The notes under the pieces were generated by a model. The model was not told where the DNA came from, made no database searches, and saw only the letters and a list, made by a program, of their open reading frames with translations. Position numbers and translations under genes: made by a program. A stretch of 64,000 nucleotides of DNA from positions 124,001 through 188,000 of the IMG/VR virus record IMGVR_UViG_3300020595_003017; one strand, written 5' to 3'. How positions within the stretch are numbered: position 1 is the first letter of the stretch; each line of letters starts with the position of its first letter. Below are positions 3,573 through 63,858 of the stretch, one piece after another. The DNA comes from a virus.

Positions 3573-3575
3573 AAA

Positions 3576-7435: not shown

Positions 7436-7442
7436 GGTGTGA

Positions 7443-8099: not shown

Positions 8100-8100
8100 A

Positions 8101-8116
8101 ATAATTTCTGTATAAT
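8101..8116 (+). promoter_or_regulatory. Weak candidate promoter -10 element
   Basis: The 47-base gap before the radical SAM gene holds an exact TATAAT at 8111-8116. A poor -35 candidate (TTTTCA at 8086) lies about 19 bases upstream. This is the first gap in the sugar operon long enough for an internal promoter, but the AT-rich background makes a chance match plausible. Confidence 0.25.
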
Positions 8117-8146
8117 TACGTTATAGGAAAAGTCTGGGAGTAAAAA

Positions 8147-10129: not shown

Positions 10130-10132
10130 TGA

Positions 10133-11423: not shown

Positions 11424-11431
11424 ATTTTTAC

Positions 11432-11460
11432 TAAACATTTTTTCGATCAAGATATACAAT
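11432..11460 (+). promoter_or_regulatory. Candidate sigma70-type promoter before the nonulosonate genes
   Basis: In the 62-base gap before the cytidylyltransferase gene, TAAACA at 11432-11437 (4 of 6 matches to TTGACA) lies 17 bases before TACAAT at 11455-11460 (5 of 6 matches to TATAAT). A GAGGG ribosome site follows at 11469-11473. It would give the nonulosonate pair an independent start. AT-richness makes this only suggestive. Confidence 0.35.
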
Positions 11461-11485
11461 CACTATTAGAGGGTCGTGAATACCT

Positions 11486-12163
11486 ATGAAAAAGTGTGTG
11501 GTTATCTTAGCAAGAGGTGGTAGCAAAAGCATACCAAGGAAAAACCTAGTTAAGATAAACGGTCAAGCTCTATTGTCATATCCTATAAAAGCAGCCTTTG
11601 CCGCTGGTATTGATGATGTTTGGGTATCTTCTGAGGACGAAGAAATTAAATCTTTAGCAAAAACTTTAGGTGCCAAAGTACATAACCGACCTTATTGGTT
11701 GGCTGGGGATCTCACAACGGATTTTGAATGTTTTCAGGATTTCTTATCTGATCATAATCAATATGATTATGTTATTCACTTGAGAGCGACGTCTCCACAA
11801 ATAAATGCTAAAATAATCCAAGAAGCAGTAACCAAGTTTGAAAATAATTACGAGATTGTTGATTCCCTTAGGTCTGTCACAAGGATGGAAAAATCTCCGT
11901 TCAAGTCTTGGTTTATGGAAAAGCAAGGATTTTTGACGCCGGTTATACCTGATAATGATTTACATTCCTCGCCGAGACAGGTATTAAGAACTAGCTTTTA
12001 TCAAAATGCTTGCATTGATATAATTAAAGCCGATACAATTACTAAAAAAAGTAGTATCATAGGTGAGCGGTGTATTCCATATCTTATGGAAGATGACTAT
12101 AATATAGACATTGACACCGAACAAGATTTAACTCAAGCAAAGAATATATTTAAGGATCAATAA
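11486..12163 (+). CDS. neuA-like: Acylneuraminate (nonulosonate) cytidylyltransferase
   Basis: A protein of 225 residues. The start ILARGGSKSIPRKNL is the nucleotide-binding signature of CMP-sialic acid, CMP-legionaminate and CMP-pseudaminate synthetases. HLRATSPQ and the closing NIDIDTEQDLTQA are also family hallmarks. It would join CTP and a nonulosonic acid to give the CMP-sugar and pyrophosphate. It is followed directly by a NeuB-like synthase (1-base overlap) and preceded by a transferase that could use the product. The particular nine-carbon sugar cannot be decided from the sequence. Confidence 0.88.
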   Translation: MKKCVVILARGGSKSIPRKNLVKINGQALLSYPIKAAFAAGIDDVWVSSEDEEIKSLAKTLGAKVHNRPYWLAGDLTTDFECFQDFLSDHNQYDYVIHLRATSPQINAKIIQEAVTKFENNYEIVDSLRSVTRMEKSPFKSWFMEKQGFLTPVIPDNDLHSSPRQVLRTSFYQNACIDIIKADTITKKSSIIGERCIPYLMEDDYNIDIDTEQDLTQAKNIFKDQ

Positions 12164-13635
12164 TGTTTTTTATTTTAGAAATGGCTAACAATCATCAGGG
12201 TAGTGTGCAACATGCAAAAGCTATTATTGATGATTTCGTAGAAGTTAAAAACAAATACGATTTAAACGTAGGTTTAAAAGTTCAGTTTCGTAACCTTGAC
12301 ACCTTTATTCATCCTGATTTCAAGAACTCTGGACTGAAATATGTTAAAAGGTTTAATGAGACTAGACTAGAGGTAGAGGATTTTCGACAAATTTTAGAAT
12401 ATGCAAAATCAAAAGGTATGAAAACTGTCGCAACGCCTTTTGATAATGAATCTTTAAGATTGTTCGAGGAACTTGATGTTGATATACTAAAGATAGCTAG
12501 TTGTTCTGCTGATGATTGGCCACTCTTAAGGCAGGTTGCAAAAATACAAAGAAAAATTGTTATGTCAACCGCCGGCACAGAAATACCGGTACTACAAAAA
12601 GCATACAACTTATTCAAGGCTAACAATAGAGATTTTGCTTTCATGCACTGTGTGGGGGATTATCCGACACCAACTTCTAGTGCAGACTTGTCTAGAATTC
12701 TAACGCTTAGGGATACTTTTCCTGATATAGAAATAGGTTTTTCTACTCACGAATCACCAGATGAGGTATCGTTAGCTTCACATGCTCGTGCCATGGGTTG
12801 TACGATATTTGAAAAACATGTTGGTAAAAAGACAGACACAGTAAATCTTAATGCTTATTCATGCACTAGAGAACAGTATGAAAATATGATAGTTGATTTG
12901 ATGCGTTACCAGTCTGCTTTTGAGGGTAAATCTAACACGCAGAAACAATCTTTGAGAAACCTCAAAAGGGGAGTGTATATTAGGGAAGATTTGCCCAAAG
13001 GTCACACCCTCTCAGAAGAAGATCTTTTTTATGCAATGCCTTGCCAAGAGGATCAACTGGATGTATCAAAAATTGATATGGTTTTGGGCTCTGCTCTTGA
13101 AGTGGCAAAAAGCAGAAATGAAAAACTCTGTCTAGAAAACATTATAAATAAAACTGATGATGAGACACATAAAATCTGTGACTCTGTTAGAGAAGTTTTA
13201 GAACACGCAAAAATACCAGTTACCCCAAAAGATAAGTGTGAAATTTCTTGTCATTACGGATTGGAAAATTTTGAAAGATATGGTGCCTTTATCATTGATA
13301 AGGTTAATAGAGAATATTGTAAAAAGCTAATTGTAATGTTACCAGGACAAAAACACCCAGAGCATTATCACATAAGAAAAGAAGAAACCTTTGAGTTAAT
13401 ACACGGTGACTGTTCTATTGCCGTAAAAGGAAAAACTGTTGACTTAAAGCTTGGAGAGCCATTTCTTATTGTCAGAAATGTACCACACGCTTTCCAGACT
13501 TTGAATGGTTGTGTTATCGAAGAAGTTTCTACAACTCATCATCGTGGTGATTCAATATACACTGACCCATCAATTCTTCGAAAAGAAGTAAAAGACAGAA
13601 AAGTAACATGCAATATTTATAGGAAAAAAATATGA
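12163..13635 (+). CDS. neuB-like: NeuB-like nonulosonate synthase fused to SAF and cupin domains
   Basis: A protein of 490 residues in three parts. Residues 1-260 form the NeuB barrel (LEMANNHQGS, KVQFRN, HCVGDYPTP, GFSTHESPDE, FEKHVGK), which condenses phosphoenolpyruvate with a six-carbon amino sugar. Residues 270-335 form an antifreeze-like SAF domain (KRGVYIREDLPKGHTLSEED). Residues 385-475 form a cupin barrel with HPEHYHIRKEE and a later VPHAF, giving possible metal-binding His and Glu residues. Ordinary NeuB proteins end after SAF, so the cupin is an added domain. It might bind or isomerise the sugar, or act as a sensor. No epimerase of NeuC type is seen nearby, so the precursor may come from the host. 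Confidence 0.87.
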   Translation: MFFILEMANNHQGSVQHAKAIIDDFVEVKNKYDLNVGLKVQFRNLDTFIHPDFKNSGLKYVKRFNETRLEVEDFRQILEYAKSKGMKTVATPFDNESLRLFEELDVDILKIASCSADDWPLLRQVAKIQRKIVMSTAGTEIPVLQKAYNLFKANNRDFAFMHCVGDYPTPTSSADLSRILTLRDTFPDIEIGFSTHESPDEVSLASHARAMGCTIFEKHVGKKTDTVNLNAYSCTREQYENMIVDLMRYQSAFEGKSNTQKQSLRNLKRGVYIREDLPKGHTLSEEDLFYAMPCQEDQLDVSKIDMVLGSALEVAKSRNEKLCLENIINKTDDETHKICDSVREVLEHAKIPVTPKDKCEISCHYGLENFERYGAFIIDKVNREYCKKLIVMLPGQKHPEHYHIRKEETFELIHGDCSIAVKGKTVDLKLGEPFLIVRNVPHAFQTLNGCVIEEVSTTHHRGDSIYTDPSILRKEVKDRKVTCNIYRKKI

Positions 13636-14915
13636 CAAACCACTTTAAAAATATTACACAGTGCCGCATTTGTGGATCACAGGACTTGACTGAGGTTATC
13701 TCTATTGAGGAACAACATTTGTCTCCGACATTTGTTCGAACGAATAAAGATAATCATTTAGCAGGTTTACTTGTTAGGCAGACTTTAGTTCTTTGTGACA
13801 AAAGTAAAAATAGTAAAAATTGTGGACTTTTACAACTCAAAGAAACTGTGAAGCCAGATTTATTATACAAGCAATACTTTTATCGCTCCGCCGTAAGTGA
13901 TACGATGCGCAAGGACCTTAGAGAGGTTGTTGACGATGTTACATCTAGAGTAGACTTGAATGGTGGAGATGTTGTTCTTGATATTGGTGCAAATGATTGC
14001 ACCATGTTGTCTTACTTTGACTCTTCTTTGGCGAGAGTAGGAGTTGAGCCAGCAGAAAATATTGAATGGGATCATGTCGATGAATCAATAACAATTGTTA
14101 ATGATTACTTTTCTTGGCAGGCCGTGGAATCAACACTGGCAGGAAGAAAAGTAAAGGCATTTACAAGTTGCGCCATGTTTTATGATCTTGATGATCCAAA
14201 TAGCTTTGTAGCTGCAATCAAAAAATGTCTGGACAAAGATGGTGTCTGGTGTATTCAGTTGAGTTACTTGCCTTTAATGCTTGAGAATATTAATTTTTAT
14301 GATATTTGTAACGAACACTTGGAATATTATTCGCTGCAAGTTCTTGAAACACTGATGAATAGAAATGGATTAAAAATTGTAGACGCTAGCTTAAACAACG
14401 TCAATGGTGGGTCTGCTCGTGTTTTCATTAAGCACATTGAACACCCTGATGCTCAAAGTGATGATCTTGTAAAACTTCTGAAGAAAGAGGACGAACTAAA
14501 TCTCTATGAGCCAAAGACTTACGTTGAGTTTTATGACAAAATAAAAGATCTTAGAGATAGAATTAAAAACTCCATGCTTTCGGAAATTGAAAGAGGCGAG
14601 CTTGTCCTAGGTCTCGGAGCATCAACTAAAGGTAACATGCTACTTCAGCTTTTTGGTATCGATAATAAAATGCTTCCTTACATTAGCGAACGCAACCCAG
14701 ATAAAGTTGGATTACGAACGCTGGGCACAGACATAGAATTAATATCTGAGGAACACGCTCGGTCTCTTAATCCTAGTTGTATGCTTGTATTACCTTGGTA
14801 CTTTAAAGACGAAATTGTCGAAAGGGAACAGCCTTATATTCAGGCAGGCGGCAAGCTGATGTTTCCGATGCCGTATCCTCATATTGTGACAAAAGATGGG
14901 GAGATAAAAATCTAA
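13632..14915 (+). CDS. Sugar C-methyltransferase (NovU/TylC3-like)
   Basis: A 427-residue protein with the three-part plan of NDP-sugar C-methyltransferases. It has an N-terminal zinc-binding segment (CRICGSQ near residues 11-17, with later Cys in VLCDKSKN and CGLLQ), a SAM-binding domain (VLDIGANDC and VGVEP), and a C-terminal domain beginning LGLGASTKGNMLLQ and ending PWYFKDEI. These enzymes put a methyl branch on C3 or C5 of a 4-keto-6-deoxy sugar. With the dehydratase and 3-dehydrase upstream, it points to a branched deoxysugar. The start overlaps the synthase gene by ATGA and the stop overlaps the next start (TAATG). Confidence 0.85.
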   Translation: MTNHFKNITQCRICGSQDLTEVISIEEQHLSPTFVRTNKDNHLAGLLVRQTLVLCDKSKNSKNCGLLQLKETVKPDLLYKQYFYRSAVSDTMRKDLREVVDDVTSRVDLNGGDVVLDIGANDCTMLSYFDSSLARVGVEPAENIEWDHVDESITIVNDYFSWQAVESTLAGRKVKAFTSCAMFYDLDDPNSFVAAIKKCLDKDGVWCIQLSYLPLMLENINFYDICNEHLEYYSLQVLETLMNRNGLKIVDASLNNVNGGSARVFIKHIEHPDAQSDDLVKLLKKEDELNLYEPKTYVEFYDKIKDLRDRIKNSMLSEIERGELVLGLGASTKGNMLLQLFGIDNKMLPYISERNPDKVGLRTLGTDIELISEEHARSLNPSCMLVLPWYFKDEIVEREQPYIQAGGKLMFPMPYPHIVTKDGEIKI

Positions 14916-15817
14916 TGAAAGTTGTAGTAACTGGTGGTTCTGGATTTGTAGGTAAAAGGCTGCAATTAATCAAGCCAGATTGGACATATCTTTCTTCGAA
15001 AGATTATAACCTAATGGACTCAGGTGACTGTGATAGGATGTACAAAGAATTAAAGCCCGACGCTGTGGTTCATTTAGCGGGTCAAGTAGGAGGCATAAAA
15101 GCCAATGACGACCGACCAGCAGACTTCTACTATATGAACATAACTATGAACACAAACATCGTTCAAAAGGCTTACGAGAATGGTGTTAAAAGAGTGCTAG
15201 CTTCTTTGAGTACATGTACATTCCCAGATGTTGTAAAAAAATACCCACTAACCGAAGAAGATATATTTGATGGACCTCCTGCGGCTACCAACATATCATA
15301 TGGGTATGCTAAGAGGAGCCTGTTAATACAAATTTTAGCGTACAGGAGACAGTACGGTTTAAATTATAGTTCCTTTTGTCCATCTAATTTGTATGGTCCG
15401 GGAGATAATTTCAACCTTAACACATCTCACTTTGTGCCGGCCATGATAAGAAAGTTTTCCGAGGCGAGTGATGGCGACACAGTTGAAGTTTGGGGAACCG
15501 GAAAACCACTCCGGCAACAATTGTACGTTGATGATTTGGCAAATATAATTCCCATTCTTTTAGACAAACATCACACTGAAGTCCCTTTGATTGTAGCACC
15601 TTATGAGAACTTGTCTATATCAGAAATGGTATCGATGATCAAGGAGAAATCAGGAAAGAATTGTGAAGTTTTTTATAACAACAACCTTGATGGTCAGTTT
15701 AGGAAAGATGGATCTAATGAGAAGTTAATTGATTTGATTGGTGAATATAATTTTATAAACTTTAAAGACGGAGTGGAGCAGACGTATGACTGGTACGCAA
15801 ACAAAGTCCTACAATAA
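14915..15817 (+). CDS. fcl: GDP-L-fucose synthase-like epimerase/reductase
   Basis: Extended SDR of 300 residues: GGSGFVG cofactor motif, HLAGQVGGI (the 'A-x-x-V-G-G-I' typical of Fcl/WcaG), LSTCTFPD containing the Ser and Cys of the active site, and YGYAKR as the Y-x-x-x-K. DNFNLNTSHFVPAMIRKF is another strong Fcl feature. It converts GDP-4-keto-6-deoxymannose to GDP-L-fucose by 3,5-epimerisation and NADPH reduction. It is directly followed, with 32 bases of overlap, by the gene making its substrate. The product could feed the GT10-like transferase at 5893. Confidence 0.88.
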   Translation: MKVVVTGGSGFVGKRLQLIKPDWTYLSSKDYNLMDSGDCDRMYKELKPDAVVHLAGQVGGIKANDDRPADFYYMNITMNTNIVQKAYENGVKRVLASLSTCTFPDVVKKYPLTEEDIFDGPPAATNISYGYAKRSLLIQILAYRRQYGLNYSSFCPSNLYGPGDNFNLNTSHFVPAMIRKFSEASDGDTVEVWGTGKPLRQQLYVDDLANIIPILLDKHHTEVPLIVAPYENLSISEMVSMIKEKSGKNCEVFYNNNLDGQFRKDGSNEKLIDLIGEYNFINFKDGVEQTYDWYANKVLQ

Positions 15818-16796
15818 GACAGCTTTTGTTACTGGCGTAACAGGACAAGACGGATCATATCTTGTAGAACTTTTATTAGATAAAGGGTACAGAGTGATTG
15901 GGGCAAAAAGAAGAACCTCTACTATCTGTACTGACAGGATCGATCGTTTATTTGATAGGCCAAATTTTATTCTTGAATTTTATGACCTTAACGACACTTC
16001 TAGAACATGGGAACTAATAAATAAATACAAGCCAGACGAGATCTATAATCTAGCAGCGATGTCGCATGTTAGAGTATCTTTTGAAATACCTGAACACACG
16101 GTAGATGGAATAGCTATGGGAACCTTGCGGCTTTTAAATGCCTGTAAGGAACTTGTACCAAATGCAAAATTTTACCAAGCATCATCTTCAGAAATGTATG
16201 GCGATAATCCAAATTATCCTTTCAATGAGGATTCTAGCTTAATGCCAGCATCTCCGTATGCTTGTGCTAAAGTATTTGCTCACAATCTCTGTAGAAATTA
16301 TCGACTAGCATATGGTATGCATGTTTCAAGTGGAATACTTTTTAATCATGAGTCTCCACGCCGAGGCGAAACGTTTGTTACAAGGAAGATAACTTTAGCA
16401 GCAGCCAGAATCAAACAGGGGTTACAAGACAAACTTTTCTTAGGTAACCTAGAGGCAAAAAGAGACTGGGGTTTCGCTGGCGACTATACCGAGGCCATGT
16501 GGCTCATGCTACAACAAGATGAGCCAGATGATTATGTTATCGCCACAGGCGAAACTCATACAGTTAGAGAATTTTTGGAAGAAGTTTTCTCACATGCTGG
16601 TCTTGATGTCGATAAACATCTGTATATTGACCCAAGACTTTTCAGACCCCATGAAGTTCCTTATCTTCTCGGTAATCCCGAAAAAGCAAAAAAGAAATTA
16701 AACTGGGAACCAAAAATAACATTTAAAGAATTAGCAAAACAAATGTACGAGGAAGACTATAAACTCGTCGCAAAAAATAAAGGAGAAATAAAATGA
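15786..16796 (+). CDS. gmd: GDP-mannose 4,6-dehydratase
   Basis: A protein of 336 residues. TGVTGQDGSYL is the Gmd-type dinucleotide motif, ASSSEMYGD contains the catalytic triad region (Ser where Thr is usual), and YACAKV is the Y-x-x-x-K. ILFNHESPRRGETFVTRK is diagnostic of Gmd. It removes water from GDP-D-mannose to give GDP-4-keto-6-deoxymannose. The ATG at 15786 lies inside the Fcl gene. The pair Fcl-Gmd is complete for GDP-fucose given host GDP-mannose. The gene closes the sugar island with an ATGA overlap into a tiny conserved gene. Confidence 0.93.
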   Translation: MTGTQTKSYNKTAFVTGVTGQDGSYLVELLLDKGYRVIGAKRRTSTICTDRIDRLFDRPNFILEFYDLNDTSRTWELINKYKPDEIYNLAAMSHVRVSFEIPEHTVDGIAMGTLRLLNACKELVPNAKFYQASSSEMYGDNPNYPFNEDSSLMPASPYACAKVFAHNLCRNYRLAYGMHVSSGILFNHESPRRGETFVTRKITLAAARIKQGLQDKLFLGNLEAKRDWGFAGDYTEAMWLMLQQDEPDDYVIATGETHTVREFLEEVFSHAGLDVDKHLYIDPRLFRPHEVPYLLGNPEKAKKKLNWEPKITFKELAKQMYEEDYKLVAKNKGEIK

Positions 16797-53675: not shown

Positions 53676-54281
53676 ATGGAATTAAACACCGATATCCTTA
53701 GATTCATGATAAAAGAAGAGATACAACGATCTCTCTTGTTGGAAATGAGACCCGAAGAGGAAGAGGCTGCTGGTACTATAGTCGGAATACTTTCTAGATT
53801 AGCAGCCGAAGATATGGACACCGATAGCGTCATGAACGCTGCGCAGCAACAATTTAAGGCTGCATCTGCTGCGACTGGTGCAGGCAATAGAAGAGACATA
53901 AACGAAATGGGCTATGATAAAATGCAGTCAATAGATATGGGTGTTAAACATCATGACGATCACGAGGGGAACATGGCAAAGCGCCAAATGTTTAAAACAG
54001 CCCAATACGCTGCCGAAATCTTTGACAATATTCAAGACGGCGATGAGTTTCCAGCCTGGATTCAGAGCAAAATGACAAAGGTAGCAGACTATATCGGAGC
54101 CGTCAAGCACTATCTTGAATATGATCATGTGATGGGGGAGAAACTTGACAAGGACGCCACCGCTGGTGATTATGTTAAGGACTTTCGAGATTCTGACGCC
54201 CCACAATTTAAAGGCAAGTCAAAAAAGAAAAAGCAAGAGATGGCTGTAGCAGCCTATCTTGATGCAAAAGATAACAAGTAA
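53676..54281 (+). CDS. Tagged phage protein with 'SDAPQFKGKSKKKK' C-terminal motif
   Basis: A 201-residue protein. The first 14 residues, MELNTDILRFMIKE, fit the second N-terminal tag class of this region and end in I-K-E. The middle has an acidic helix, then QMFKTAQYAAEIFDNIQDGD and YIGAVKHYLEYD, a helical unit I recall from several unassigned proteins of marine T4-like phages. The C-terminus SDAPQFKGKSKKKKQEMAV is a basic helix, possibly DNA-binding. The start lacks a good ribosome site and instead follows CTATTTA 10 bases upstream. A virion-internal location would fit but is inferred. Confidence 0.6.
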   Translation: MELNTDILRFMIKEEIQRSLLLEMRPEEEEAAGTIVGILSRLAAEDMDTDSVMNAAQQQFKAASAATGAGNRRDINEMGYDKMQSIDMGVKHHDDHEGNMAKRQMFKTAQYAAEIFDNIQDGDEFPAWIQSKMTKVADYIGAVKHYLEYDHVMGEKLDKDATAGDYVKDFRDSDAPQFKGKSKKKKQEMAVAAYLDAKDNK

Positions 54282-55901: not shown

Positions 55902-56702
55902 ATGAAGATTACACTATCACAACTTCGGGGAATGGTTGAAGAAGCCCTTCTTGAGAAGAAGAAAAAGAGTGGCGGTAAAAAAGATGCCTGTTATCATAAG
56001 GTGAAAGCCCGTTATGATGTGTGGCCTTCTGCATATGCTTCTGGTGCCTTGGTTAAGTGTCGTAAAGTTGGTGCTGCCAACTGGGGTAACAAAAGCAAAA
56101 AGGAGGGTCTAGAACAAGACCCGCTTCGTGACATGATCCGTGAAGCTATAGCAGAGTTGGCTGAAAAAAAAACTAACCCTCGCATTCCAAGAAAAAAAGG
56201 ACAGAAGTCTAAGTCAAAAAAACACAGTGACCTCTATACCGATGAAGACCCCAAGGGCACCATACACGGATTAAAGTTTGCTACAGAAGCAGACGCTAAA
56301 AAAAGCGTGTCTAAAATTAAAAGCTCTAGCAGGTCACACGCCCATAAAGTTCAGGCTGCTGTCGCCATGGAGCAACGTGCAAAAGCTGCTGGCAAAGCAT
56401 CAGCCGCTGCTGTATACAGAAAATATATTAACTCTGTAAAAAAAGAAGAAGCTATCGAAGAAGCTGACAGCGAAGGATTGCGCAAGTGGTTTGGTCGCAA
56501 AGGTGAAAAGGGAAGCAAGAGCGGGTGGGTAGATTGTAATACTTGCCGCAAAGATAAAAAGACGGGCAGAAAGAAGTGTAGTGCCTGCGGTCGTGAAAGC
56601 GGCGAAAAACGAGCTAAATATCCAAAGTGCCGACCCACGCCCTCAGCGTGTGGCAAGCGAGGCAGCTACGGCAAAAAATCAAAGGCAGGTAAAAAAGGAT
56701 GA
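55902..56702 (+). CDS. Tagged basic protein with Cys-rich DUF5872-like end
   Basis: A 266-residue Lys-rich protein. The tag MKITLSQLRGMVEEALLE occupies residues 1-18, and a second similar segment, PLRDMIREAIAELAE, is at about residues 74-88. Between them, ACYHKVKARYDVWPSAYAS and ALVKCRKVGAANWG form a conserved module I recall from viral proteins. The C-terminus has LRKWFGRKGEKG followed by Cys pairs (CNTC, CSAC) and YPKCRP, resembling DUF5872 seen in phages and giant viruses. It may bind zinc and DNA. Two tag-like segments suggest it arose by joining two tagged proteins. It overlaps the next gene by ATGA. Confidence 0.65.
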   Translation: MKITLSQLRGMVEEALLEKKKKSGGKKDACYHKVKARYDVWPSAYASGALVKCRKVGAANWGNKSKKEGLEQDPLRDMIREAIAELAEKKTNPRIPRKKGQKSKSKKHSDLYTDEDPKGTIHGLKFATEADAKKSVSKIKSSSRSHAHKVQAAVAMEQRAKAAGKASAAAVYRKYINSVKKEEAIEEADSEGLRKWFGRKGEKGSKSGWVDCNTCRKDKKTGRKKCSACGRESGEKRAKYPKCRPTPSACGKRGSYGKKSKAGKKG

Positions 56703-57973
56703 AAATTAAAAAATCAATTTTAATTGAGGCGGTTAGGAAAGTTATTAAGGAGCAAGATTTTGATGCTTCAAAGTTTCCATACCCCACACCAGACAAGTCA
56801 GGAAAATACGCAAAATTTGTAGCACAAGCTGGAAAACCAGAATTAGACAAAGGTCCACCCAACGACGATCAGGTGTCTTATGACAAAAGATCTGATTTTA
56901 GCGCCGATGATTTAAAACCCTCCCAGAAGGAAATTAAATTAGGTCAAGCTCTTGGTATGGCTATTTCTATGATAGGTAAGCTACCTGGCCCCTTTAAAGA
57001 CGGACCCGGCGGAGACCTTGGTGCAGTTATTTCTAATGATGGTTATATTATGGACGGTCATCATCGTTGGGCTGCCTCCATTTTTGCAGTCGGACCAGAG
57101 GTTGAACTAGGAGGTTTTCAGATTGACATGCCTGGTGAAGACCTTGTTCAGGTTCTGGCACTGATGGGTGATGCTTTTCACCCTGGCGAGAGAAAGAAGC
57201 CATCACCACATAATATCATGACTGCTACTATTGATGACGTCAATAATATGATCAATAAATTTGTTCAAGAGGGTGTTGGCGATTTTGTAGATGCAGAAAC
57301 CGTTAAGAGAGTCCTGGATGAGGCTTACGGTGGAGTAGAGCAAGCCAAAGCGCATTTTGTCACACAACTTAAAAATGTTCAAAAACCACCTCCAGAGTGG
57401 GCAGAGTCCAGAGATAAGATGCCGGTTCTTGAACCAGACGCTGGTGAACCTGAGAAGGTTGCAAAAGCAATGAAAACTGGTAATGTCGATGTTTTTTATC
57501 CCTACGCTGACCAGGACGCTGAAGAAGAAGAGGAAGAGGAAGAGGAAGAGGCAGCAAATCGTAAGGACATCAATATCAGTAAAATAAAAATTACGAGAGA
57601 AAGTATTACAAGAATTGTTAAGGAATCCCTCAAGGTTAAACAACAAGAACAATACTATCACATTGCGGATGCTATGTATGATGATGGCACACTTGCAGAA
57701 GATATCGAATTTTGGGATGATGTTATTGAAGAGGCAGAGTACCAAGGACGCAAGGTTACTCTTAATAAACCTATGCGTGGCGACGTAAAGAAATCTAAAG
57801 TTTATGTTAAAGACCCTAAGACTGGAAACGTGAAGAAGGTAAACTTTGGGGATCCTAACATGAAAATTAAAAAGTCAAACCCAGAAAGACGAAAGTCTTT
57901 TCGTGCCCGTCATAACTGTAAAAACCCAGGACCCAAAACGAAAGCACGCTACTGGTCCTGTAAGGCTTGGTAA
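56699..57973 (+). CDS. Tagged fusion: ParB/sulfiredoxin-like part plus RARHNC-tail module
   Basis: A 424-residue protein in two modules. Module 1 begins with the tag MKIKKSILIEAVRKVIKE and contains DGHHRWAASIF (residues 119-129), the signature of ParB/sulfiredoxin-like domains that hydrolyse CTP or ATP or cut DNA. A run of ten Glu residues (57521-57550) links it to module 2, which opens with another tag, KIKITRESITRIVKE at residues 295-309. Module 2 ends RRKSFRARHNCKNPGP and KARYWSCKAW, a Cys-containing motif common in viral proteins. The second internal tag marks a head-to-tail fusion. Catalytic use of the ParB-like site is unproven. Confidence 0.68.
   Translation: MKIKKSILIEAVRKVIKEQDFDASKFPYPTPDKSGKYAKFVAQAGKPELDKGPPNDDQVSYDKRSDFSADDLKPSQKEIKLGQALGMAISMIGKLPGPFKDGPGGDLGAVISNDGYIMDGHHRWAASIFAVGPEVELGGFQIDMPGEDLVQVLALMGDAFHPGERKKPSPHNIMTATIDDVNNMINKFVQEGVGDFVDAETVKRVLDEAYGGVEQAKAHFVTQLKNVQKPPPEWAESRDKMPVLEPDAGEPEKVAKAMKTGNVDVFYPYADQDAEEEEEEEEEEAANRKDINISKIKITRESITRIVKESLKVKQQEQYYHIADAMYDDGTLAEDIEFWDDVIEEAEYQGRKVTLNKPMRGDVKKSKVYVKDPKTGNVKKVNFGDPNMKIKKSNPERRKSFRARHNCKNPGPKTKARYWSCKAW
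57521..57550 (+). repeat. Glu-coding GAA/GAG run
   Basis: Ten consecutive Glu codons (GAA and GAG mixed) form the linker between the two halves of the 424-residue protein. The imperfect trinucleotide repeat may have arisen by slippage at a fusion joint. It also produces a long antisense open frame with no other support. Confidence 0.8.
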
Positions 57974-58437
57974 TGAAGAAACTAATGACAGAGTGGAGAA
58001 ATTTTCTCCAAGAAGAAATGAAAGTTGTTATTGGAGCAGTCAAGGATTATGTTTGCCCACCAGCAACTCAAGATTTAAAATTAAATACCAAAAACCGTGA
58101 TGCTTCCATCCATGCAGACCATATTAAATATGGACCTTTGAATGTTGACGAGCCTGGTGATTATTGGGAAAAGATAGCAAAGTATTGGGATACCTCTGTT
58201 GATGCAGCAAAGAAATCTTTGTGCGCAAATTGCACGGCTTTCGATATTTCCCCTCGAATGAAAGAGTGTATGCCCGGTGTAACCTCTGATGAAGACGGAG
58301 AACTTGGCTATTGTTGGATGCACCACTTCAAATGCCATTCAGCCCGTGCTTGTTACACTTGGGCCAAAGGTGGACCAATTGATGAAGATAGTGTATCTCA
58401 CGAATGGCAATCTCGAAGTCCATTTTCGGAAAAATAA
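57973..58437 (+). CDS. Tagged Cys/His-rich protein (LTEWR-type tag)
   Basis: A 154-residue protein. The tag MKKLMTEWRNFLQE is followed by a Glu, so L-Q-E would be the cut site. The body has YWDTSVDAAKKSLCANC, then FDISPRMKECMPG and GYCWMHHFKCHSARACYTW: six cysteines and several His that could form two metal sites. I recall the same Cys-rich body in unassigned marine phage proteins. The true start is the ATG at 57973, overlapping the previous stop (TAATG). A structural, metal-binding role is likely, function unknown. First of six tandem genes with this tag. Confidence 0.7.
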   Translation: MKKLMTEWRNFLQEEMKVVIGAVKDYVCPPATQDLKLNTKNRDASIHADHIKYGPLNVDEPGDYWEKIAKYWDTSVDAAKKSLCANCTAFDISPRMKECMPGVTSDEDGELGYCWMHHFKCHSARACYTWAKGGPIDEDSVSHEWQSRSPFSEK

Positions 58438-58438
58438 A

Positions 58439-59269
58439 ATGAAATTGATCATGGAACAGTGGCGAGGCTTTCTCCAAGAGGGAAGGTACGAAGCAGCCAC
58501 AACAGAACTGACCCGCAAGGTAATACCTCACGTCAAATATATTATTGACGAGGTTATTCCCAGTGAGGGTGTTCAAAACTCACGCAAGGATTTGATTCTC
58601 GTAATCGGCAAGAAATATCAAGCAGGTAAAACTCTCCCAAAAGAACTTGAAGATATGATGTATATGGCTGAGTTTACTTTCCATATTGATAAAAAACTAG
58701 CGGAAGAAACAGGCGATAAGTTTATGATAGGCGGGATGCATATGAGCGTCCCTGGTGAGGGTAAGGAAGACGACTACATAAAAATCAATAGTTATTTTGA
58801 CATTGGCTTCAACGAGCAAGACCTTAATGAATATCTTGGTGAACTCAAAGCTGTCACCATCCACGAAATCCAGCACGGCGGACAAACTGATGATGTGCTA
58901 GCCACCGCTTTCCCGCCCAGAGAACCCCTGAAAATCCCGCAGACCAGATGGGACTACAATAAAATAGATGGTATTCGTGGATATTATGCTTCGGACTCCG
59001 AAACAGACACCTACACCAAAGAAGTCTATAAAAGAGCAAAGTATTACAAGGTGCCCTACACAGAAGCGTTGGATATGCGTATCAAGCAATTCTTTGATAT
59101 GTTCCGCCGCCGCCGAGACAAGATAAACGCCGAAGACGAGAAAGAAACTCCCGGCGAATATAGAGTAAAATACACAGAAGAAGAACTGAAAGACTTCTTT
59201 TACAACGAACTGCGTGATAAATATATTGCGTTTGCTAAAACAAAATACCCAGAGGCTGTGGGCATATGA
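58439..59269 (+). CDS. Tagged putative zinc metallopeptidase (HExxH)
   Basis: A 276-residue protein. The tag MKLIMEQWRGFLQE is followed by Gly. The body contains VTIHEIQHGGQTDD with HEIQH at residues 142-146, the zinc-binding and catalytic motif of metallopeptidases, preceded by a hydrophobic strand as is usual. A candidate third ligand is not certain; the region after 150 holds several Glu, Asp and Tyr. The C-terminus is highly charged. If the tag is a packaging signal, a protease would enter the host with the DNA. The ATG at 58439 starts directly after the preceding stop at 58437. The motif alone could occur by chance, but its context (amphipathic helix) supports it. Confidence 0.62.
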   Translation: MKLIMEQWRGFLQEGRYEAATTELTRKVIPHVKYIIDEVIPSEGVQNSRKDLILVIGKKYQAGKTLPKELEDMMYMAEFTFHIDKKLAEETGDKFMIGGMHMSVPGEGKEDDYIKINSYFDIGFNEQDLNEYLGELKAVTIHEIQHGGQTDDVLATAFPPREPLKIPQTRWDYNKIDGIRGYYASDSETDTYTKEVYKRAKYYKVPYTEALDMRIKQFFDMFRRRRDKINAEDEKETPGEYRVKYTEEELKDFFYNELRDKYIAFAKTKYPEAVGI

Positions 59270-59778
59270 AAAAACTCCTAACAGAGTGGCGACAATTTCT
59301 AAAAGAATCACAAGAGTTTGTGGAAGAGAAATCGCCTTTGTCTTATGACCGTGCCAGCAACATTCAGAGACTAGCCCTGCGAGACCCCAGCATAGAACCA
59401 CCTTACCGTGGGGACTTCGGTTTTGCCGACCAGTATAGTTATCGTAATCCCCGCACGGGACGGATGACTAAGAAGAGACACTTGGAAGCCCCAGGGTCAG
59501 GCGATGATATTATTGGGTTCTTGGATTATCACAGCCAAGGCGAAACCTCCGACGGTAAGCCCTTTCTTTACATTGATTACATGAAGACCCGCCGGGAACA
59601 CAAGGGACAAGGTGTTGCTACGAAATTGTTAGAAGAGTTTATCAGCCGCTTCGCACCCGAGCCTGGTTCAGTTATTCACTTCGGGAAAATACAAAACCCA
59701 GATATGTGGAGCCTCTACGAGAAAATTAAAGAGAAATACCCAGAGCACCAGATTATGGGAGCAAAGAACTTCCGATGA
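59266..59778 (+). CDS. Tagged GNAT-family acetyltransferase
   Basis: A 170-residue protein. The tag MKKLLTEWRQFLKE precedes Ser. IDYMKTRREHKGQGVATKLL (about residues 103-122) is motif A of GNAT enzymes, with R-x-x-G-x-G/A-type acetyl-CoA binding (REHKGQGVA). VIHFGKIQNPDMWSLYEK fits motif B. The substrate could be a small molecule or a host protein side chain; a tagged, possibly injected acetyltransferase would be reminiscent of T4 Alt-type injected modifiers. It overlaps both neighbours by ATGA. Confidence 0.75.
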   Translation: MKKLLTEWRQFLKESQEFVEEKSPLSYDRASNIQRLALRDPSIEPPYRGDFGFADQYSYRNPRTGRMTKKRHLEAPGSGDDIIGFLDYHSQGETSDGKPFLYIDYMKTRREHKGQGVATKLLEEFISRFAPEPGSVIHFGKIQNPDMWSLYEKIKEKYPEHQIMGAKNFR

Positions 59779-60251
59779 AAAAACTATTAACAGAGTGGCG
59801 AAAGTATTTGAAGGAAGAGGAAAGCCTTGATCCTGAACTATACGGAAACTGTGGAACACTAGCAGTCGCTCTTTTACAAGAGGCAATCAGCCGTGGGATA
59901 AAAGGCACGGAAGTTGTCCTCGTAGTGGACTCAGACCCAGAGTTAGATTCAGGTAACCCCTCGGAAGAATTTGATATTTATCATACAGCCATTTATCGTA
60001 ATGGAAAATATTATGATACTCGTGGGGAAATTTCACGAGAAGATGTTGGTTCTGTGGCTCCACTGGGATTGACTACTGACCCATCGGAAAAACCCAAGGA
60101 AGGCAGAGACTACCTAGTGTTTAGTTATATGATTGATGACCCTGATAGTTTGGCCTACATCAAAGAGGTTATAGACAACAATACCAACTGGACTAACACC
60201 TGTGAGTTCTATGGCGACCGAGCCACAAAATTTTGGGACACAGTAGGATGA
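59775..60251 (+). CDS. Tagged putative papain-fold cysteine peptidase/transglutaminase-like protein
   Basis: A 158-residue protein. The tag MKKLLTEWRKYLKE is followed by Glu. YGNCGTLAVALLQEA has Cys26 at the start of a helix, YHTAIYRNGKYYDTRGE has His70 and Asp81 on consecutive strands, and this Cys, His, Asp order is that of papain/NlpC/transglutaminase-like folds. The acidic middle is distinctive. It could cut or cross-link proteins, or deamidate. No homologue can be confirmed by eye. Its end overlaps the next gene by ATGA. Confidence 0.58.
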   Translation: MKKLLTEWRKYLKEEESLDPELYGNCGTLAVALLQEAISRGIKGTEVVLVVDSDPELDSGNPSEEFDIYHTAIYRNGKYYDTRGEISREDVGSVAPLGLTTDPSEKPKEGRDYLVFSYMIDDPDSLAYIKEVIDNNTNWTNTCEFYGDRATKFWDTVG

Positions 60252-60910
60252 AGCAACTACTAACAGAGTGGCGGAAGTTTGTTCTGACTGAAGGAATGAA
60301 GACGGCAGCCAAACTACCTCAAGGCTCGGCAATTGCTATGATGTCCAGGGGCACAAACCCTATGTTTGTTTATACTTATGGCGGCAAGCCCCTGTATGAC
60401 GAGCCCAACCCTCGCTTCAATCCTGGCGTCCCAGAAGGGGCACCTTGGGGAGAGGTTCTGATAGGGAAACTAAAACCAAATAGTCAGGGTGATTGTTCTG
60501 ATGCTTACGGCGTTGACCATTCTGAAGCCAAGCGTGGCTGGGGTCCGTTGCTTTACGATGTAGCGATGGAATGGGCAAGCCAGAACGGCGGCGGTCTTAC
60601 TTCTGATAGGGGCAGCGTATCTCAGAAAGCATACAGGGTATGGAAGCATTACTTAAACAGCCGACCAGATGTTGAGTCAGCACAACTAGACATTAGAAAC
60701 AAAGGTTATGAGAAAGTTACTCCTGACGATGAAAGCGATGACTGCGAGCAAGCCATCTCTATACAGTGGTCTAGATATTATAGAACTAGTAACGAATTTG
60801 GATGGTCAGCCGAACCCACAGCCTACCTGTATAGAGTAAGCGGAACTCCGACGACGGATGCGTTAAGAGCATCAGGACAATTTTTGGAATTAGGGGATCG
60901 CTCGCCGTGA
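60248..60910 (+). CDS. Tagged protein, possibly GNAT-like
   Basis: A 220-residue protein. The tag MKQLLTEWRKFVLTE is one residue longer than the others, moving the L-x-E to residues 13-15 (LTE). The body has RGWGPLLYDVAMEWASQNG, GGLTSDRGSVSQKAYRVWKH and a Lys/Asp-rich end. The 'G-x-G-x-x-L-x-x-x-x-x-x-x-A' and 'S-D-x-x-x-x-x-x-A-x-x-x-W' patterns are like the C-terminal half of GNAT folds, but the acetyl-CoA loop is poor, so this is a weak call. A TTG five codons upstream is less likely than the ATG overlapping the previous stop. Confidence 0.5.
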   Translation: MKQLLTEWRKFVLTEGMKTAAKLPQGSAIAMMSRGTNPMFVYTYGGKPLYDEPNPRFNPGVPEGAPWGEVLIGKLKPNSQGDCSDAYGVDHSEAKRGWGPLLYDVAMEWASQNGGGLTSDRGSVSQKAYRVWKHYLNSRPDVESAQLDIRNKGYEKVTPDDESDDCEQAISIQWSRYYRTSNEFGWSAEPTAYLYRVSGTPTTDALRASGQFLELGDRSP

Positions 60911-61506
60911 AAAAATTAATGACAGAGTGGCGAAAATTTAGACACATTGAAAAAGTAAACGAAAAGGTTTACAAGCAGTACGCCTCTCGTTTGAGCGAAG
61001 AATTTCAAGAGGCTTTCTGGAACTTATCGGAAGACCAAAAAGTATTTGTGGTTGAAGACTGGATAAGCCAAGGACGCCCAGCCCAACATTTAACTGAAGA
61101 AAAGATGGCAGACCTTGACGCCGAACAAGCATATAGCACAAAAGTTCGTGGTGTCAATGTTATTATTAATTTAAAAGATACTGATCTTGAAGCAACCAAA
61201 CACAGCAAGGAGCGTCAGTTCCGCCACGACGAAAAGATTTCCAACAAAGCAATCATCCAGGCAGTTGAAATGGCCATCGGCAAGATTATTCAGGACTATG
61301 CGAACGGCGAACTAGGTAATGACGAACCCTTTCATATTCGCATGGTAGGTAAAGGAAAAGTCCCAGCACTTAATGTCATAGCGGTATTAAACATGCAGAG
61401 AGGTCCTGATACAATAAAGGTGATCACAGTCATGAGAAAAGACGATTTCCAAACTGATGATTTTGCCGACGGACAACAAAAAACTTACACAGTACAAACA
61501 AGATAA
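60907..61506 (+). CDS. Tagged protein with possible BECR/RelE-like toxin-type domain
   Basis: A 199-residue protein starting with GTG. The tag MKKLMTEWRKFRHIEK keeps T-E-W-R but lacks the L-x-E end. Residues 12-75 are helical. The C-terminal part (about residues 95-195) has KHSKERQFRHDEKISNKAI, ALNVIAVLNMQ and TIKVITVMRKDDF: a His/Arg-rich helix, then strands ending in the 'V-x-T-V-M' seen in DUF4258/BrnT/RelE-like folds that include RNases. That suggests a nuclease-like domain, but the residues do not prove it. It is the last of the six LTEWR-tagged genes. Confidence 0.48.
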   Translation: MKKLMTEWRKFRHIEKVNEKVYKQYASRLSEEFQEAFWNLSEDQKVFVVEDWISQGRPAQHLTEEKMADLDAEQAYSTKVRGVNVIINLKDTDLEATKHSKERQFRHDEKISNKAIIQAVEMAIGKIIQDYANGELGNDEPFHIRMVGKGKVPALNVIAVLNMQRGPDTIKVITVMRKDDFQTDDFADGQQKTYTVQTR

Positions 61507-61519
61507 GAGAGATATATTT

Positions 61520-61891
61520 ATGGCTACTATGATTACAGAAGATTGTATTAATTGCGGTGCTTGTGAGCCCGAGTGCCCTAATCAGGCAATTATGGAAGGC
61601 AATGAAAAGTATGTGATTAATCCTAATCTTTGCACAGAGTGTGTTGGTTTTTATGGTTATGAGATGTGCCAAGACGTTTGTCCTGTCGTGTGTTGTATAC
61701 CTAATCAGCTTCTTCGTGAGTCTGAGGAAACACTTTATGAGCGTGCTGTTAAGCTACACGGGGATGACTCATTACCACCTAAAGAGGAACTAAGCCCAGA
61801 AACCAGTCGCTTTCGAAATCCTGATTGGGAAAATGAAATTAGTGATTTTGCAGAACCAGCAGAAGATTACACTGAGTATTGGGAAGACTAA
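61520..61891 (+). CDS. Ferredoxin, 2[4Fe-4S] (YfhL/Allochromatium type)
   Basis: A 123-residue protein. CINCGACEPECP is C-x2-C-x2-C-x3-C-P, and CTECVGFYGYEMCQDVCP is C-x2-C-x8-C-x3-C-P. The 8-residue spacer in the second motif is the mark of YfhL/Alvin-type ferredoxins, which have a low-potential cluster. The C-terminal 50 residues are acidic and beyond the usual length. The ATG at 61520 has GAGAGA upstream, and in-frame starts further left are in the preceding gene. It could donate electrons to the phage radical SAM enzyme or a host reductase. No partner gene adjoins it. Confidence 0.88.
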   Translation: MATMITEDCINCGACEPECPNQAIMEGNEKYVINPNLCTECVGFYGYEMCQDVCPVVCCIPNQLLRESEETLYERAVKLHGDDSLPPKEELSPETSRFRNPDWENEISDFAEPAEDYTEYWED

Positions 61892-61917
61892 AACACCTTT
61901 CGCAAACTATTTACTTT

Positions 61918-62424
61918 ATGAATAGGGAAAGGGACTTTTACAGAAAAATGCAAGAAGACGCTCGTAATTCTATGTACGAGCCTGAGATTATTGATGTCTC
62001 CCCTTCCGCCGAAACAACAAAACCCAACTATATTACAGCAACCATATGGACTACAATTGTGGCCGTACTAGTGTGCGGTGTATTTTCAGGCTTTCTCCTC
62101 TACCTTTACAACGAGAGTAATGTAGAAGAAACTTTGTCTCGTGCTGTTAGTCAAGCCGTAATGAGCCTTGAGCAGACTATAGAACTCCAGAGTAAAGAGA
62201 TATCTGCTTTGAAGGAAGAAAATAAAAAGATACACAATTACCTACAACTTTGGACCCCGCTTGACACTCAACGCTTACGACAGCAATATGAAGACAGGCA
62301 CAAGCCACCAACAGCCGATGACTTATTTAATACAGGTCCAGACATTATTATCAGGGGACGTGCTTTACCTCCCCTTAGAAAACTTAGCCATGGGGAAAAA
62401 CTATGCTTACCTTTCTTGGAATAA
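61918..62424 (+). CDS. Single-pass membrane coiled-coil protein
   Basis: A 168-residue protein. Residues 1-40 are charged and probably cytoplasmic, about 41-64 form one transmembrane helix (ATIWTTIVAVLVCGVFSGFL), and the following 60 residues form a heptad-like coiled coil (VEETLSRAVSQAVMSLEQ, then LQSKEISALKEENKK). No signal peptidase site is evident, and orientation would be type II. I use the ATG at 61918 although an in-frame TTG exists at 61879; CTATTTA is 11 bases upstream. Its last 22 bases overlap the protease gene, so the two are coupled. It could be a substrate or adaptor of that protease, or a spanin/lysis component, but no lysis motif is seen. Confidence 0.62.
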   Translation: MNRERDFYRKMQEDARNSMYEPEIIDVSPSAETTKPNYITATIWTTIVAVLVCGVFSGFLLYLYNESNVEETLSRAVSQAVMSLEQTIELQSKEISALKEENKKIHNYLQLWTPLDTQRLRQQYEDRHKPPTADDLFNTGPDIIIRGRALPPLRKLSHGEKLCLPFLE

Positions 62425-63206
62425 TTGTTTTAGTAATCTTTGTCCACGAATTGGGACATTATGCTGCTGCCCGTGCTTGTGGTGTAGCGGTTGATAGTTT
62501 CTCAATAGGCTTCGGCAAAGTCCTCCTTAAGAAGCAACTGTGGGGAACTGAGTGGCGTTTGTCGCTAATACCTTTCGGTGGCTACATCAAGCCTCGGGGA
62601 GAGAATGATTATAATAATGTAAAGAACGACCCTCAATCATTCTGGGCAACATCCCCCTTGAAACGAGCCTTCATCGCTGTAATGGGTCCAGTCTTTAATT
62701 TATTGTTGCCCTGGCCATTATATTTTATGCTCCTGGTAGGACAGCCTTATCCTGATATTGTTGTTCCTGACGGAGCACAGGCAGGACGAATTGGAGTAGT
62801 CGAGGCGGCTGTATATTCTGACAGGATTGCCCGCAAAATGTATAGCAGTATCTGGGATCAGGTGGTCCAGCCCAGAAAAGAACCTTTATCCATCAAGGAG
62901 GTGGGTGGACCTGTAGCTGTTTACGAGTTTACTGAGTCAGCAAGAAAACGTAGTGTTGAAACAGGAGACTGGGGATTTTTGATAGACTGGATAGCTTTCT
63001 TCTCTATCAATCTCGGCGTTATTAACTTATTGCCAATTCCAGTGTTAGATGGTGGACATATTAGTATTTCTGTGGTAGAAGGCATAAGACGCAAAAAACT
63101 AGCCGTAAAGACAAGGAACGTACTAAATATTATTGGTGCGGTTCTAGTGCTCGGTATCTTTGTTTTAGCGATAACTTCTGATGTGCTACGCCTTACCGGC
63201 ATCTAG
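62403..63206 (+). CDS. Site-2 intramembrane metalloprotease (RseP/RasP-like, M50), PDZ-less
   Basis: A 267-residue multi-pass protein. HELGH at residues 15-19 and LDGGH at 215-219 are the paired zinc motifs of S2P proteases, and GFGKVLLKK, IPFGGYIKPRG, MGPVFNLLLPWPLY and INLLPIPVLDGG are also RseP/RasP hallmarks. Between the central G-P-x-x-N segment and GGPVAVYEF there are only about 75 residues, too short for the one or two PDZ domains of cellular enzymes. It should cut transmembrane helices in the host inner membrane. The overlap with an upstream membrane protein gene suggests partnership. Confidence 0.9.
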   Translation: MLTFLGIIVLVIFVHELGHYAAARACGVAVDSFSIGFGKVLLKKQLWGTEWRLSLIPFGGYIKPRGENDYNNVKNDPQSFWATSPLKRAFIAVMGPVFNLLLPWPLYFMLLVGQPYPDIVVPDGAQAGRIGVVEAAVYSDRIARKMYSSIWDQVVQPRKEPLSIKEVGGPVAVYEFTESARKRSVETGDWGFLIDWIAFFSINLGVINLLPIPVLDGGHISISVVEGIRRKKLAVKTRNVLNIIGAVLVLGIFVLAITSDVLRLTGI

Positions 63207-63238: not shown

Positions 63239-63340
63239 ATGAAAAAAATACTTCATAAATTGGTTAATCTTTTTAATGATAAACACTGTTGCTGCTGTGG
63301 CACATGCTCTTGTTCTTGCTGTAAGGGAGAGTGTAAGTGA
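63239..63340 (+). CDS. 33-residue protein with nine cysteines
   Basis: ORF from ATG 63239 with AAGGGG upstream. The first 15 residues, MKKILHKLVNLFNDK, form an amphipathic helix; the rest contains CCCCGTCSCSCC and a final C, nine cysteines in all. It ends in GTGA overlap with the next gene. The cysteines could bind metal ions, as in metallothioneins, or be acylated or disulfide-linked at a membrane. Being preceded by a clear ribosome site and coupled to the next gene makes it more than a chance ORF. Function unknown. Confidence 0.65.
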   Translation: MKKILHKLVNLFNDKHCCCCGTCSCSCCKGECK

Positions 63341-63858
63341 GAATTACCAAGTCCCAACTTATTCAACTAATCAAAGAAGAAGTAGATAAAGAATTTGAAC
63401 AGGGTATTGTTCTTGAGTCGGATCTTCGTAGTTCCGAGCCGAATACGAATAGGCGAAGTGCGCACGGTGATAATAGATCCATCCTGATTCACAAAACAGA
63501 TTTGCCTACCCTTATGACCACAAGGCATTTGGTTTTTCCTGCTCCGAGCGAGGGAACTTATAAAGGTATTAGGGTTGCGCTTAAATTAGTAGAAGGTAAG
63601 GACACTATAAAAACGGTAGCTAAGGGACGTAAGGACTTGAGGTACCTGTTTTTCGGGCCTATACCGAAGCCCACCAAGTTATCTAAGCCTATTAAATTCA
63701 CTGTAGATGAAGCTATCTTTAGCACCGAGAACAACGACGTTGGTAAAATCACTTACGATCGAACTGGTTCTGGTGCTATACTTAAGGATAAACAAGGAAG
63801 ACGCTACAAAGCTAGTCCTATGGTTTTTGAAGTGATATTCATCAAAGACGATTCTTAA
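63337..63858 (+). CDS. Tagged hypothetical protein, 173 aa
   Basis: Begins with GTG. The tag MRITKSQLIQLIKE is the clearest member of the second class (ending L-I-K-E, then Glu). The body is mixed alpha/beta with LFFGPIPKPTKLSKPIKF and GKITYDRTGSGAILKDKQG, rich in Lys and Gly. I cannot name a family. It overlaps the Cys-rich ORF by GTGA. The tag makes it a candidate virion-internal protein, like the other tagged genes. Confidence 0.62.
   Translation: MRITKSQLIQLIKEEVDKEFEQGIVLESDLRSSEPNTNRRSAHGDNRSILIHKTDLPTLMTTRHLVFPAPSEGTYKGIRVALKLVEGKDTIKTVAKGRKDLRYLFFGPIPKPTKLSKPIKFTVDEAIFSTENNDVGKITYDRTGSGAILKDKQGRRYKASPMVFEVIFIKDDS

Follow-up and report, generated by a model that had tools for sequence, protein, structure and literature searches.

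What does a short N-terminal peptide do when six neighbouring phage genes begin with it and then encode proteins that are otherwise unlike? The question is raised by a 190.5 kb phage present as an IMG/VR virus record of 190,528 bases, from which bases 124001-188000 form the stretch analysed here (the window, 64,000 bases, to which positions refer unless the genome or another locus is named). At 57973-61506 six open reading frames (ORFs) lie in tandem on the + strand, with the coordinates given in a preliminary description of this DNA. Their shared peptide, tag A, very probably belongs to a set of interchangeable capsid-targeting sequences, predicted to be cut by the prohead protease gp21, and the genes would form part of a variable cassette of effectors that are packaged and injected. 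The sequences display a common tag, an abrupt loss of conservation where the cut is predicted, a protease together with a motif of its own type in gp23, exchange of tags, and a variable tandem cassette. The six genes, each composed of a tag and a body, are as follows.

57973..58437, + strand: tag-A gene 1, 154 amino acids (aa), Cys/His-rich body, no Pfam match
57973-58014, + strand: gene 1 tag, residues 1-14, predicted cut after FLQE
58439..59269, + strand: tag-A gene 2, 276 aa, metallopeptidase-like body by its HEIQH motif, no Pfam match
58439-58480, + strand: gene 2 tag, predicted cut after FLQE
59266..59778, + strand: tag-A gene 3, 170 aa, GNAT acetyltransferase PF00583 (E 3.6e-6, above cut-off)
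59266-59307, + strand: gene 3 tag, predicted cut after FLKE
59775..60251, + strand: tag-A gene 4, 158 aa, candidate Cys/His/Asp hydrolase-like body, no Pfam match
59775-59816, + strand: gene 4 tag, predicted cut after YLKE
60248..60910, + strand: tag-A gene 5, 220 aa, GNAT-like body
60248-60292, + strand: gene 5 tag, predicted cut after VLTE (residue 15)
60907..61506, + strand: tag-A gene 6, 199 aa, GTG start, residue 14 without a site
Base 61098, + strand: gene 6 predicted cut, residue 64, after HLTE

From gene 2 to gene 6 each stop overlaps the next start by 4 bases, and 1 base lies between gene 1 and gene 2. The common N-terminus is MK-x-[LI]-[LM]-x-[EQ]-WR, then usually x-[FY]-L-x-E/, the slash marking the predicted cut. 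In cassette order the starts are MKKLMTEWRNFLQE/E, MKLIMEQWRGFLQE/G, MKKLLTEWRQFLKE/S, MKKLLTEWRKYLKE/E, MKQLLTEWRKFVLTE/G and, with the GTG start, MKKLMTEWRKFRHIEK. A DNA pattern for the core of the tag matched the window 5 times, missing gene 2, with 0 matches expected from 100 shuffles; the sharing is far beyond chance. The tandem genes and their common start thus stood as described, except that the leucine given for residue 4 is isoleucine in gene 2. The gp21 motif [LI]-x-E, announced for five genes, ends the peptide at residue 14 in four of them and at residue 15 in one, while the sixth has no site there and carries it at residue 64.

From residue 15 onward the six bodies formed six separate clusters (blastp, 1e-3) with no detectable mutual similarity, in agreement with their description as unrelated, and the assignment of gene 3 to the GNATs was borne out by PF00583. 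The cluster of gene 1 contains 6 members across loci, all 6 with Glu at residue 14 (E14). The HEIQH of gene 2 is invariant in 5/5 aligned sequences (the window and 4 relatives), as are C26, H70 and D81 of gene 4 in 4/4. For gene 5 the predicted structure has a mean pLDDT (predicted local distance difference test) of 69; Foldseek ranks GNATs first among PDB entries (E 0.026, probability 0.93, no match reaching E<=0.001), and the fold is placed nearest to them with modest confidence. Gene 6, earlier described as a putative BECR-like domain, matched DUF4258 alone in Pfam (E 0.18, below cut-off).

Tag A is also present on other viral contigs. When IMG/VR was scanned for the core of the tag and residues 13 and 14 were left free, 23 matches resulted, among them 9 distinct ORFs of >=60 aa, with E14 after a hydrophobic residue 12 in 5/9, or in 5/7 without two off-pattern ORFs. 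Relatives of three window genes led to further loci of tandem tagged genes, up to 8 per stretch; these queries started with the tag, so that some seed patterns span residues 1-8, not 9-14. After removal of 7 off-pattern or alternative starts from 90 distinct proteins, 83 remained, those of this phage included, and this short N-terminal peptide is thus common to otherwise dissimilar proteins of 37 body families (single-linkage blastp, 1e-3; some may yet have a common fold). E14 is present in 70 of the 83 proteins and is the majority state in 33 of the 37 families. When each family is represented once, every residue from 1 to 14 carries between 2.4 and 4.3 bits of information, 3.3 at residue 14, and the value falls to 1.1 bits at residue 15 and 0.5-0.9 at residues 16-26. 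As conservation ends at [LI]-x-E, we infer that the common part is under shared selection only up to the protease motif.

A functionless peptide, left as the trace of recent duplication or recombination at a common DNA stretch, would also give shared 5' ends. The stretch ACAGAGTGG is constant in 5/6 window genes and cassette content differs among relatives; in L337, for example, the place that genes 3 to 5 take after the HEIQH gene in the window is occupied by an ART-PolyVal protein and a further GNAT-like protein. The 37 representatives speak against such a relic, as their residues are constant while the codons vary synonymously (E14: GAA 21, GAG 10; R9: CGG 18, CGA 14; L12: five Leu codons), and so do homologous bodies which carry other tags instead. 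Synonymous variation and tag swaps together rule out this hardly credible explanation.

The preliminary description had looked to the rest of the genome for a prohead protease, and one of the T4 gp21 type (S77) is encoded there (PF03420, E 1e-31), sharing GEL-x-HP and SSRGLGS with T4 gp21. The head genes follow the T4 order of portal (gp20), gp21 (S77), gp22-like and gp23, the portal protein being assigned by matches to phage portals and the gp22-like gene named from position and composition only. By portal protein, Microcystis phage Mel-JY01, at 45% identity, and Flavobacterium phage immuto, at 37%, stand closest among named phages. In gp23 of this phage the motif LLRE/T stands in the same region as FLTE/A of T4, the counterparts being LISE/A in Mel-JY01 and IVSE/A in immuto (the cuts outside T4 being predicted); the phage possesses gp21, and in its gp23 a motif of this type occupies the place where T4 gp23 is cut. 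In T4 reference sequences IPII and IPIII start with MKTYQEFIAE/A and gp24 with MAKINELLRE/S, and gp23 has FLTE/A. The established T4 cut positions are FLTE/A for gp23, LLRE/S for gp24 and FIAE/A for IPII/IPIII. Tag A ends in the same motif as these T4 proteins and as the phage's own gp23. Counted backwards from Glu, Y4, F7, I8 and E10 of IPII/IPIII correspond to W8, F/Y11, L12 and E14 of tag A. According to PMC9026906, T4 internal proteins carry capsid-targeting sequences of 10-19 residues (ten in IPIII), in IPIII targeting depends on residues 4 and 7 and processing on residues 8 and 10, and Asp at residue 10 blocks processing and keeps targeting; the four residues with these roles are present in kind in tag A. 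The same source adds that T4-like phages may be able to package varied proteins by means of such sequences.

Two further tags were found in related phages, where they seem to do the same job as tag A. Tag B, MKITKxQL[KR]xIIKE, gave at least 188 matches in at least 119 stretches, comprising at least 169 distinct proteins in at least 141 body families; the search restricted residue 14 to Asp or Glu, and among the matches listed, to which all conservation data for tag B refer, Glu is present in all 169 distinct proteins. Conservation of tag B fades over residues 15-22, and a second [LIM]-x-E is enriched near residue 22, its end falling at residues 19-26 in 76/141 families with 29 in shuffles (maximum 41 in 200 shuffles). 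Tag C, M[NK]LLREYIRELLxE/, was found in 49 distinct proteins of 22 families, with E14 in 46/49 proteins and 19/22 families (residues 12-14 free in the search) and a drop from 3.5 bits at residue 14 to 1.4 at residue 15. The three tags have in common a basic residue 9, hydrophobic residues 11 and 12, and Glu 14, a skeleton partly forced by the search patterns for B and at residues 9 and 11 of C. Tags B and C also form arrays of many short differing proteins (L089, L050, L365, L390, L195-L203). In immuto the starts at L328:1803, L330:7221 and L330:8222 share FxLxxFLxE/NxLTxN, which by sequence may be a possible fourth tag type.

Homologous bodies stand behind different tags, namely A and B, A and C, and A and a Mel-JY01 start. 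The GNAT-like body of gene 5 matches the tag-C protein L395 (39% over 195 aa), and a near-identical copy of gene 3, L333:2828, aligns from body residue 3 on with tag-C L389 (45% over 159 aa). A P-loop body is found behind tag A (L025) and tag B (L118), and the tag-A protein at genome 93254, ART-like by reading of VVYHYT only and without Pfam support, matches a Mel-JY01 protein starting MIKLKSLLQE/. Mel-JY01 has an annotated prohead protease, and its candidate tagged starts are MIKLKSLLQE/I, MIKLMSLVTE/T and MGILKQLLKE/I. In seven A-C families the best-placed alignment begins <=10 residues from the predicted cut, the queries having started at residue 15 so that earlier starts were impossible. 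Within the genome additional tag-A genes lie at 48432 and 93254, with a looser one (FKDFITE/) at 49127. An [LIMVF]-x-E ending at residue 14 is present in 5/7 called tag-A genes (6/8 with gene 2, whose start the gene caller had put upstream), in 9/10 tag-B genes (the tag-B rule itself requires hydrophobics near 11-12) and in 4/168 other + strand genes of >=75 aa; for tagged 15/18 against other 4/168, Fisher p = 6e-16. L-x-E starts number 43 in this phage, with a shuffle mean of 16 (largest 27), and 27 each in Mel-JY01 and immuto, with shuffle means of 16 (largest 26 and 24), a signal weak by itself.

Gene 6 presents a different kind of exchange. In its relative L339 tag A, ending YIKE/, is fused directly to EKMADLDAEQAYSTK, and in gene 6 the EKMADLDAEQAYSTK residues come after QHLTE/ at residue 64, with 89% identity to L339 over 140 aa onward. 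Other relatives of gene 6 have HLME/ or AIKE/ at the residue-64 position. Two unlike pro-parts therefore end in [LI]-x-E before the same predicted mature start. This bears on whether the tag could dock or localise its protein elsewhere, such as at a replication factory, the membrane or the tail, the terminal L-x-E being a coincidence in a helical Glu/Leu-rich sequence. Tags A, B and C do resemble short amphipathic helices by eye, cleavage is predicted only, and conservation of tag B continues beyond residue 14. Such docking is nevertheless improbable, given the identical post-site residues of gene 6 and its relative despite pro-parts differing by 50 residues, the fall of conservation directly after Glu in tag A and tag C, and the agreement of tag A with the T4 residues reported as important.

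The distribution of the tags was compared with that of S77 and gp23. For tag A, 19 virus contigs were tested for both, and S77 was present in 7 of the 8 with a gp23 relative (in the remaining one gp23 lies <2 kb from the contig end) and in 0/11 without; the counts omit the 4.8 kb contig L351, and 9 further tag-A contigs from the first scan (5-55 kb), outside the gp23 test, had no S77. The 14 tag-C contigs tested for both gave 7/7 and 0/7, and the pooled values are 14/15 with and 0/18 without gp23; with 4 contigs covered as tag-B contigs (S77 4/4) the tag-C contigs of >=80 kb number 18. Tag-B contigs of >=80 kb had S77 in 25/32, the 7 misses showing no relative of this phage's gp23. The background was 6/12 chance-hit or random-pattern viral contigs of >=80 kb, and tag B was found in 0/21 control viral contigs (controls drawn from 80 of 120 rows). 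Among 84,980 prokaryote genomes tag B occurs on 7 contigs of 5 assemblies. One of these has a single contig with 21 tags, S77 and gp23, which is binned in a metagenome-assembled genome of Methylococcaceae and is probably a phage; a second has the tags and the S77-gp23 pair on separate contigs, and in the remaining three S77 was not found.

Several results weigh against the proposed capsid targeting. As gp21 and gp23 adjoin, the split of 14/15 and 0/18 shows only that missing S77 tracks a missing head module. As a statistical test the association of S77 with the tags was rejected, 25/32 and 6/12 giving no significant excess (p = 0.13) because S77 is common in large phages. E14 is absent from 13/83 tag-A proteins, and the relative L029 has Asp there. 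Tag B holds 3.3 bits at residue 15 and 1.7 at residue 16, with no sharp stop at 14. Tag A is absent from Mel-JY01 and from the parts of immuto examined (bases 100001-110410 lay outside this search), and tblastn of the tags against named phages found none, a weak test because of very short queries and a low-complexity filter. The T4-type late promoter TATAAATA has 3 copies on the + strand, none upstream of or near the cassette. PADLOC gave no match for ten proteins tested, gene 3 alone among the six window bodies has a Pfam match above cut-off, and no virion proteomics or N-terminal data were found for these phages.

The label 'effector' for the candidate cargo rests on domain matches in some bodies. 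Among tag-A bodies of relatives two match ART-PolyVal above the Pfam cut-off (L337:3004 and L342:2621; 6e-15 and 1.3e-7) and two below it. AAA_33 and tRNA_lig_CPD (2H phosphoesterase-type) were also found above cut-off, GNAT matches below, and a transglutaminase-like match just under. None of the six window bodies matches ART-PolyVal above cut-off. Profile searches of the PDB with two body families gave no convincing match and PHROGs only weak ones; the predicted structure of an ART-PolyVal relative (mean pLDDT 58.6) was not used. The tag might target the capsid and still bring mainly core, scaffold or DNA-condensing proteins for head building, not host effectors. A tag-B-like small protein, MKKSELKNIIKE (genome 16814-17200, L002), is indeed situated between gp21 and the gp22-like gene and is a possible core component, the bodies of the gene at 55902 and of the C-terminus of the gene at 56699 are basic, and PMC9026906 reports a head-assembly role for T4 IPIII. 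The GNAT, ART-PolyVal, P-loop (AAA_33) and 2H phosphoesterase-type bodies belong to enzyme families for which we know of no assembly role, and the cassette content changes between relatives; head-building cargo is therefore the unlikely alternative to injected effectors.

For injected effectors, the tag would fold into a short amphipathic helix and bind to the core of the prohead, cleavage after E14 would fall to the S77 protease, and the freed protein would remain in the head during DNA packing and enter the bacterium with the DNA as an early effector. The features of T4 capsid targeting that can be read from sequence are present, and the tags are expected to work in the same way, with packaging, removal and ejection as predictions. 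This role, taken from T4 in the preliminary description, gains support from the protease, the T4-type motif, the stop of conservation over 37 families and the bodies found behind other tags. Like tag A, T4 IPI, IPII, IPIII and Alt have a short N-terminal peptide which ends in a gp21-type motif; in IPII/IPIII and tag A the order aromatic, aromatic, aliphatic, Glu is spaced alike, and both phages have an S77 gp21. T4 Alt is an ADP-ribosyltransferase, and some cargo in relatives match this family too. Unlike the T4 peptide, tag A has 14 residues, not 10, and Trp in all collected members (Trp being part of the search pattern), and it goes together with many tandem cargo genes, at least three exchangeable tag types and internal tag-like segments in some ORFs, packaging being predicted here.

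Other systems were also compared. In phage P1 an N-terminal signal of DarB, of which the first 30 residues are sufficient, loads an injected anti-restriction protein, like the predicted role of the tag; for the P1 Dar N-termini no BLAST consensus is reported (PMC9024508), whereas the tags here have a clear one. SPN3US and phiKZ have head-packaged proteins cut after Glu, among them two paralogues with identical first 15 residues; their propeptides are often far longer (several >100 residues) and end in A-x-E (SPN3US) or S-x-E (phiKZ) (PMC5694885), against 14 residues and [LI]-x-E here. ART-PolyVal, a domain type of polyvalent proteins, is matched here in two tag-A bodies of relatives above cut-off and in none of the six window bodies; for polyvalent proteins metallopeptidase and BECR domains are also named (PMC5512222), as are ART and GNAT in PMC7824862. 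Polyvalent proteins fuse several domains (PMC5512222), whereas here the genes are mostly short, with a single body and one tag each. Several disparate domains per polypeptide are absent from the six window proteins (154-276 aa), and two parts are seen only in the gene at 56699. No account of these tags was found in the literature, mostly papers open without subscription.

On balance it is favoured that a large group of uncultured T4-related phages uses a modular head-loading code of at least three interchangeable tags, each closing with the motif of the prohead protease, and dozens of exchangeable effector genes in variable operons, with some tag-linked polyproteins separated by the protease in the head. 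If this is true, the tags make the injected effector set of a phage readable from its genome. Without virion proteomics it is difficult to find out which proteins a phage injects, and metagenomes are the main source of what is known about these phages. If strict and cleaved, an N-terminal tag would be the capsid equivalent of a signal peptide, and injected effectors could be listed across many phages from sequence alone, including enzymes whose targets are unknown and which are the first to face host defence. The tags may also serve as compact signals for loading proteins into phage heads and as a simple test of how T4-type cores recognise cargo.

Genes with tag-like starts were also found elsewhere in the window.

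53676..54281, + strand: possible tag variant MELNTDILRFMIKE/E, 201 aa (by sequence, weaker)
55902..56702, + strand: tag-B-like gene MKITLSQLRGMVEEALLE/K, 266 aa, internal tag-like segment LRDMIREA (by sequence)
56699..57973, + strand: tag-B-like gene MKIKKSILIEAVRKVIKE/Q, 424 aa, DGHHRW domain, then a second domain
About 57587-57625, + strand: internal tag-like segment KITRESITRIVKE/S of the 56699 gene, preceding its second domain
63337..63858, + strand: tag-B gene MRITKSQLIQLIKE/E, 173 aa

The first part of the 56699 protein matches the tag-A protein L335:1133 (25%, 1e-9), which has a ParBc_2 match below cut-off, and its second part stands alone as a tag-A protein in L340 (77% over 115 aa). 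Their internal segments hint that the 56699 and 55902 ORFs encode polyproteins linked by tags, which the prohead protease could separate. Further tag-B genes extend from the 63337 gene to the contig end and are also present at the contig start. The contig ends (1-112 and 1191-1282 against 188918 and 189676) have exact shared stretches of 112 and 92 bases with differing offsets, as if the genome ends overlap with an indel within the tag-B gene array.

At genome 48432-49627 (L011:1433-2628) the tag-A protein matches DUF3293 above cut-off and an S-adenosylmethionine lyase family below it; the looser-tagged gene follows, and then a gene at 49643 which reads like S-adenosylmethionine synthetase. 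In Mel-JY01 a YHYT gene with an IIE/A start comes directly after an annotated S-adenosylmethionine synthase. Neither window 40000-64000 nor a 200-base piece of a tag-B locus had a megablast match. By reading only, genes resembling a ferredoxin and a site-2 protease (HELGH) are situated just past the cassette (61457-63206), and a long block at 898-16796 resembles genes of sugar-nucleotide, glycosyltransferase and sialic-acid-type synthesis; a radical-SAM-like protein lies within it at 8147.

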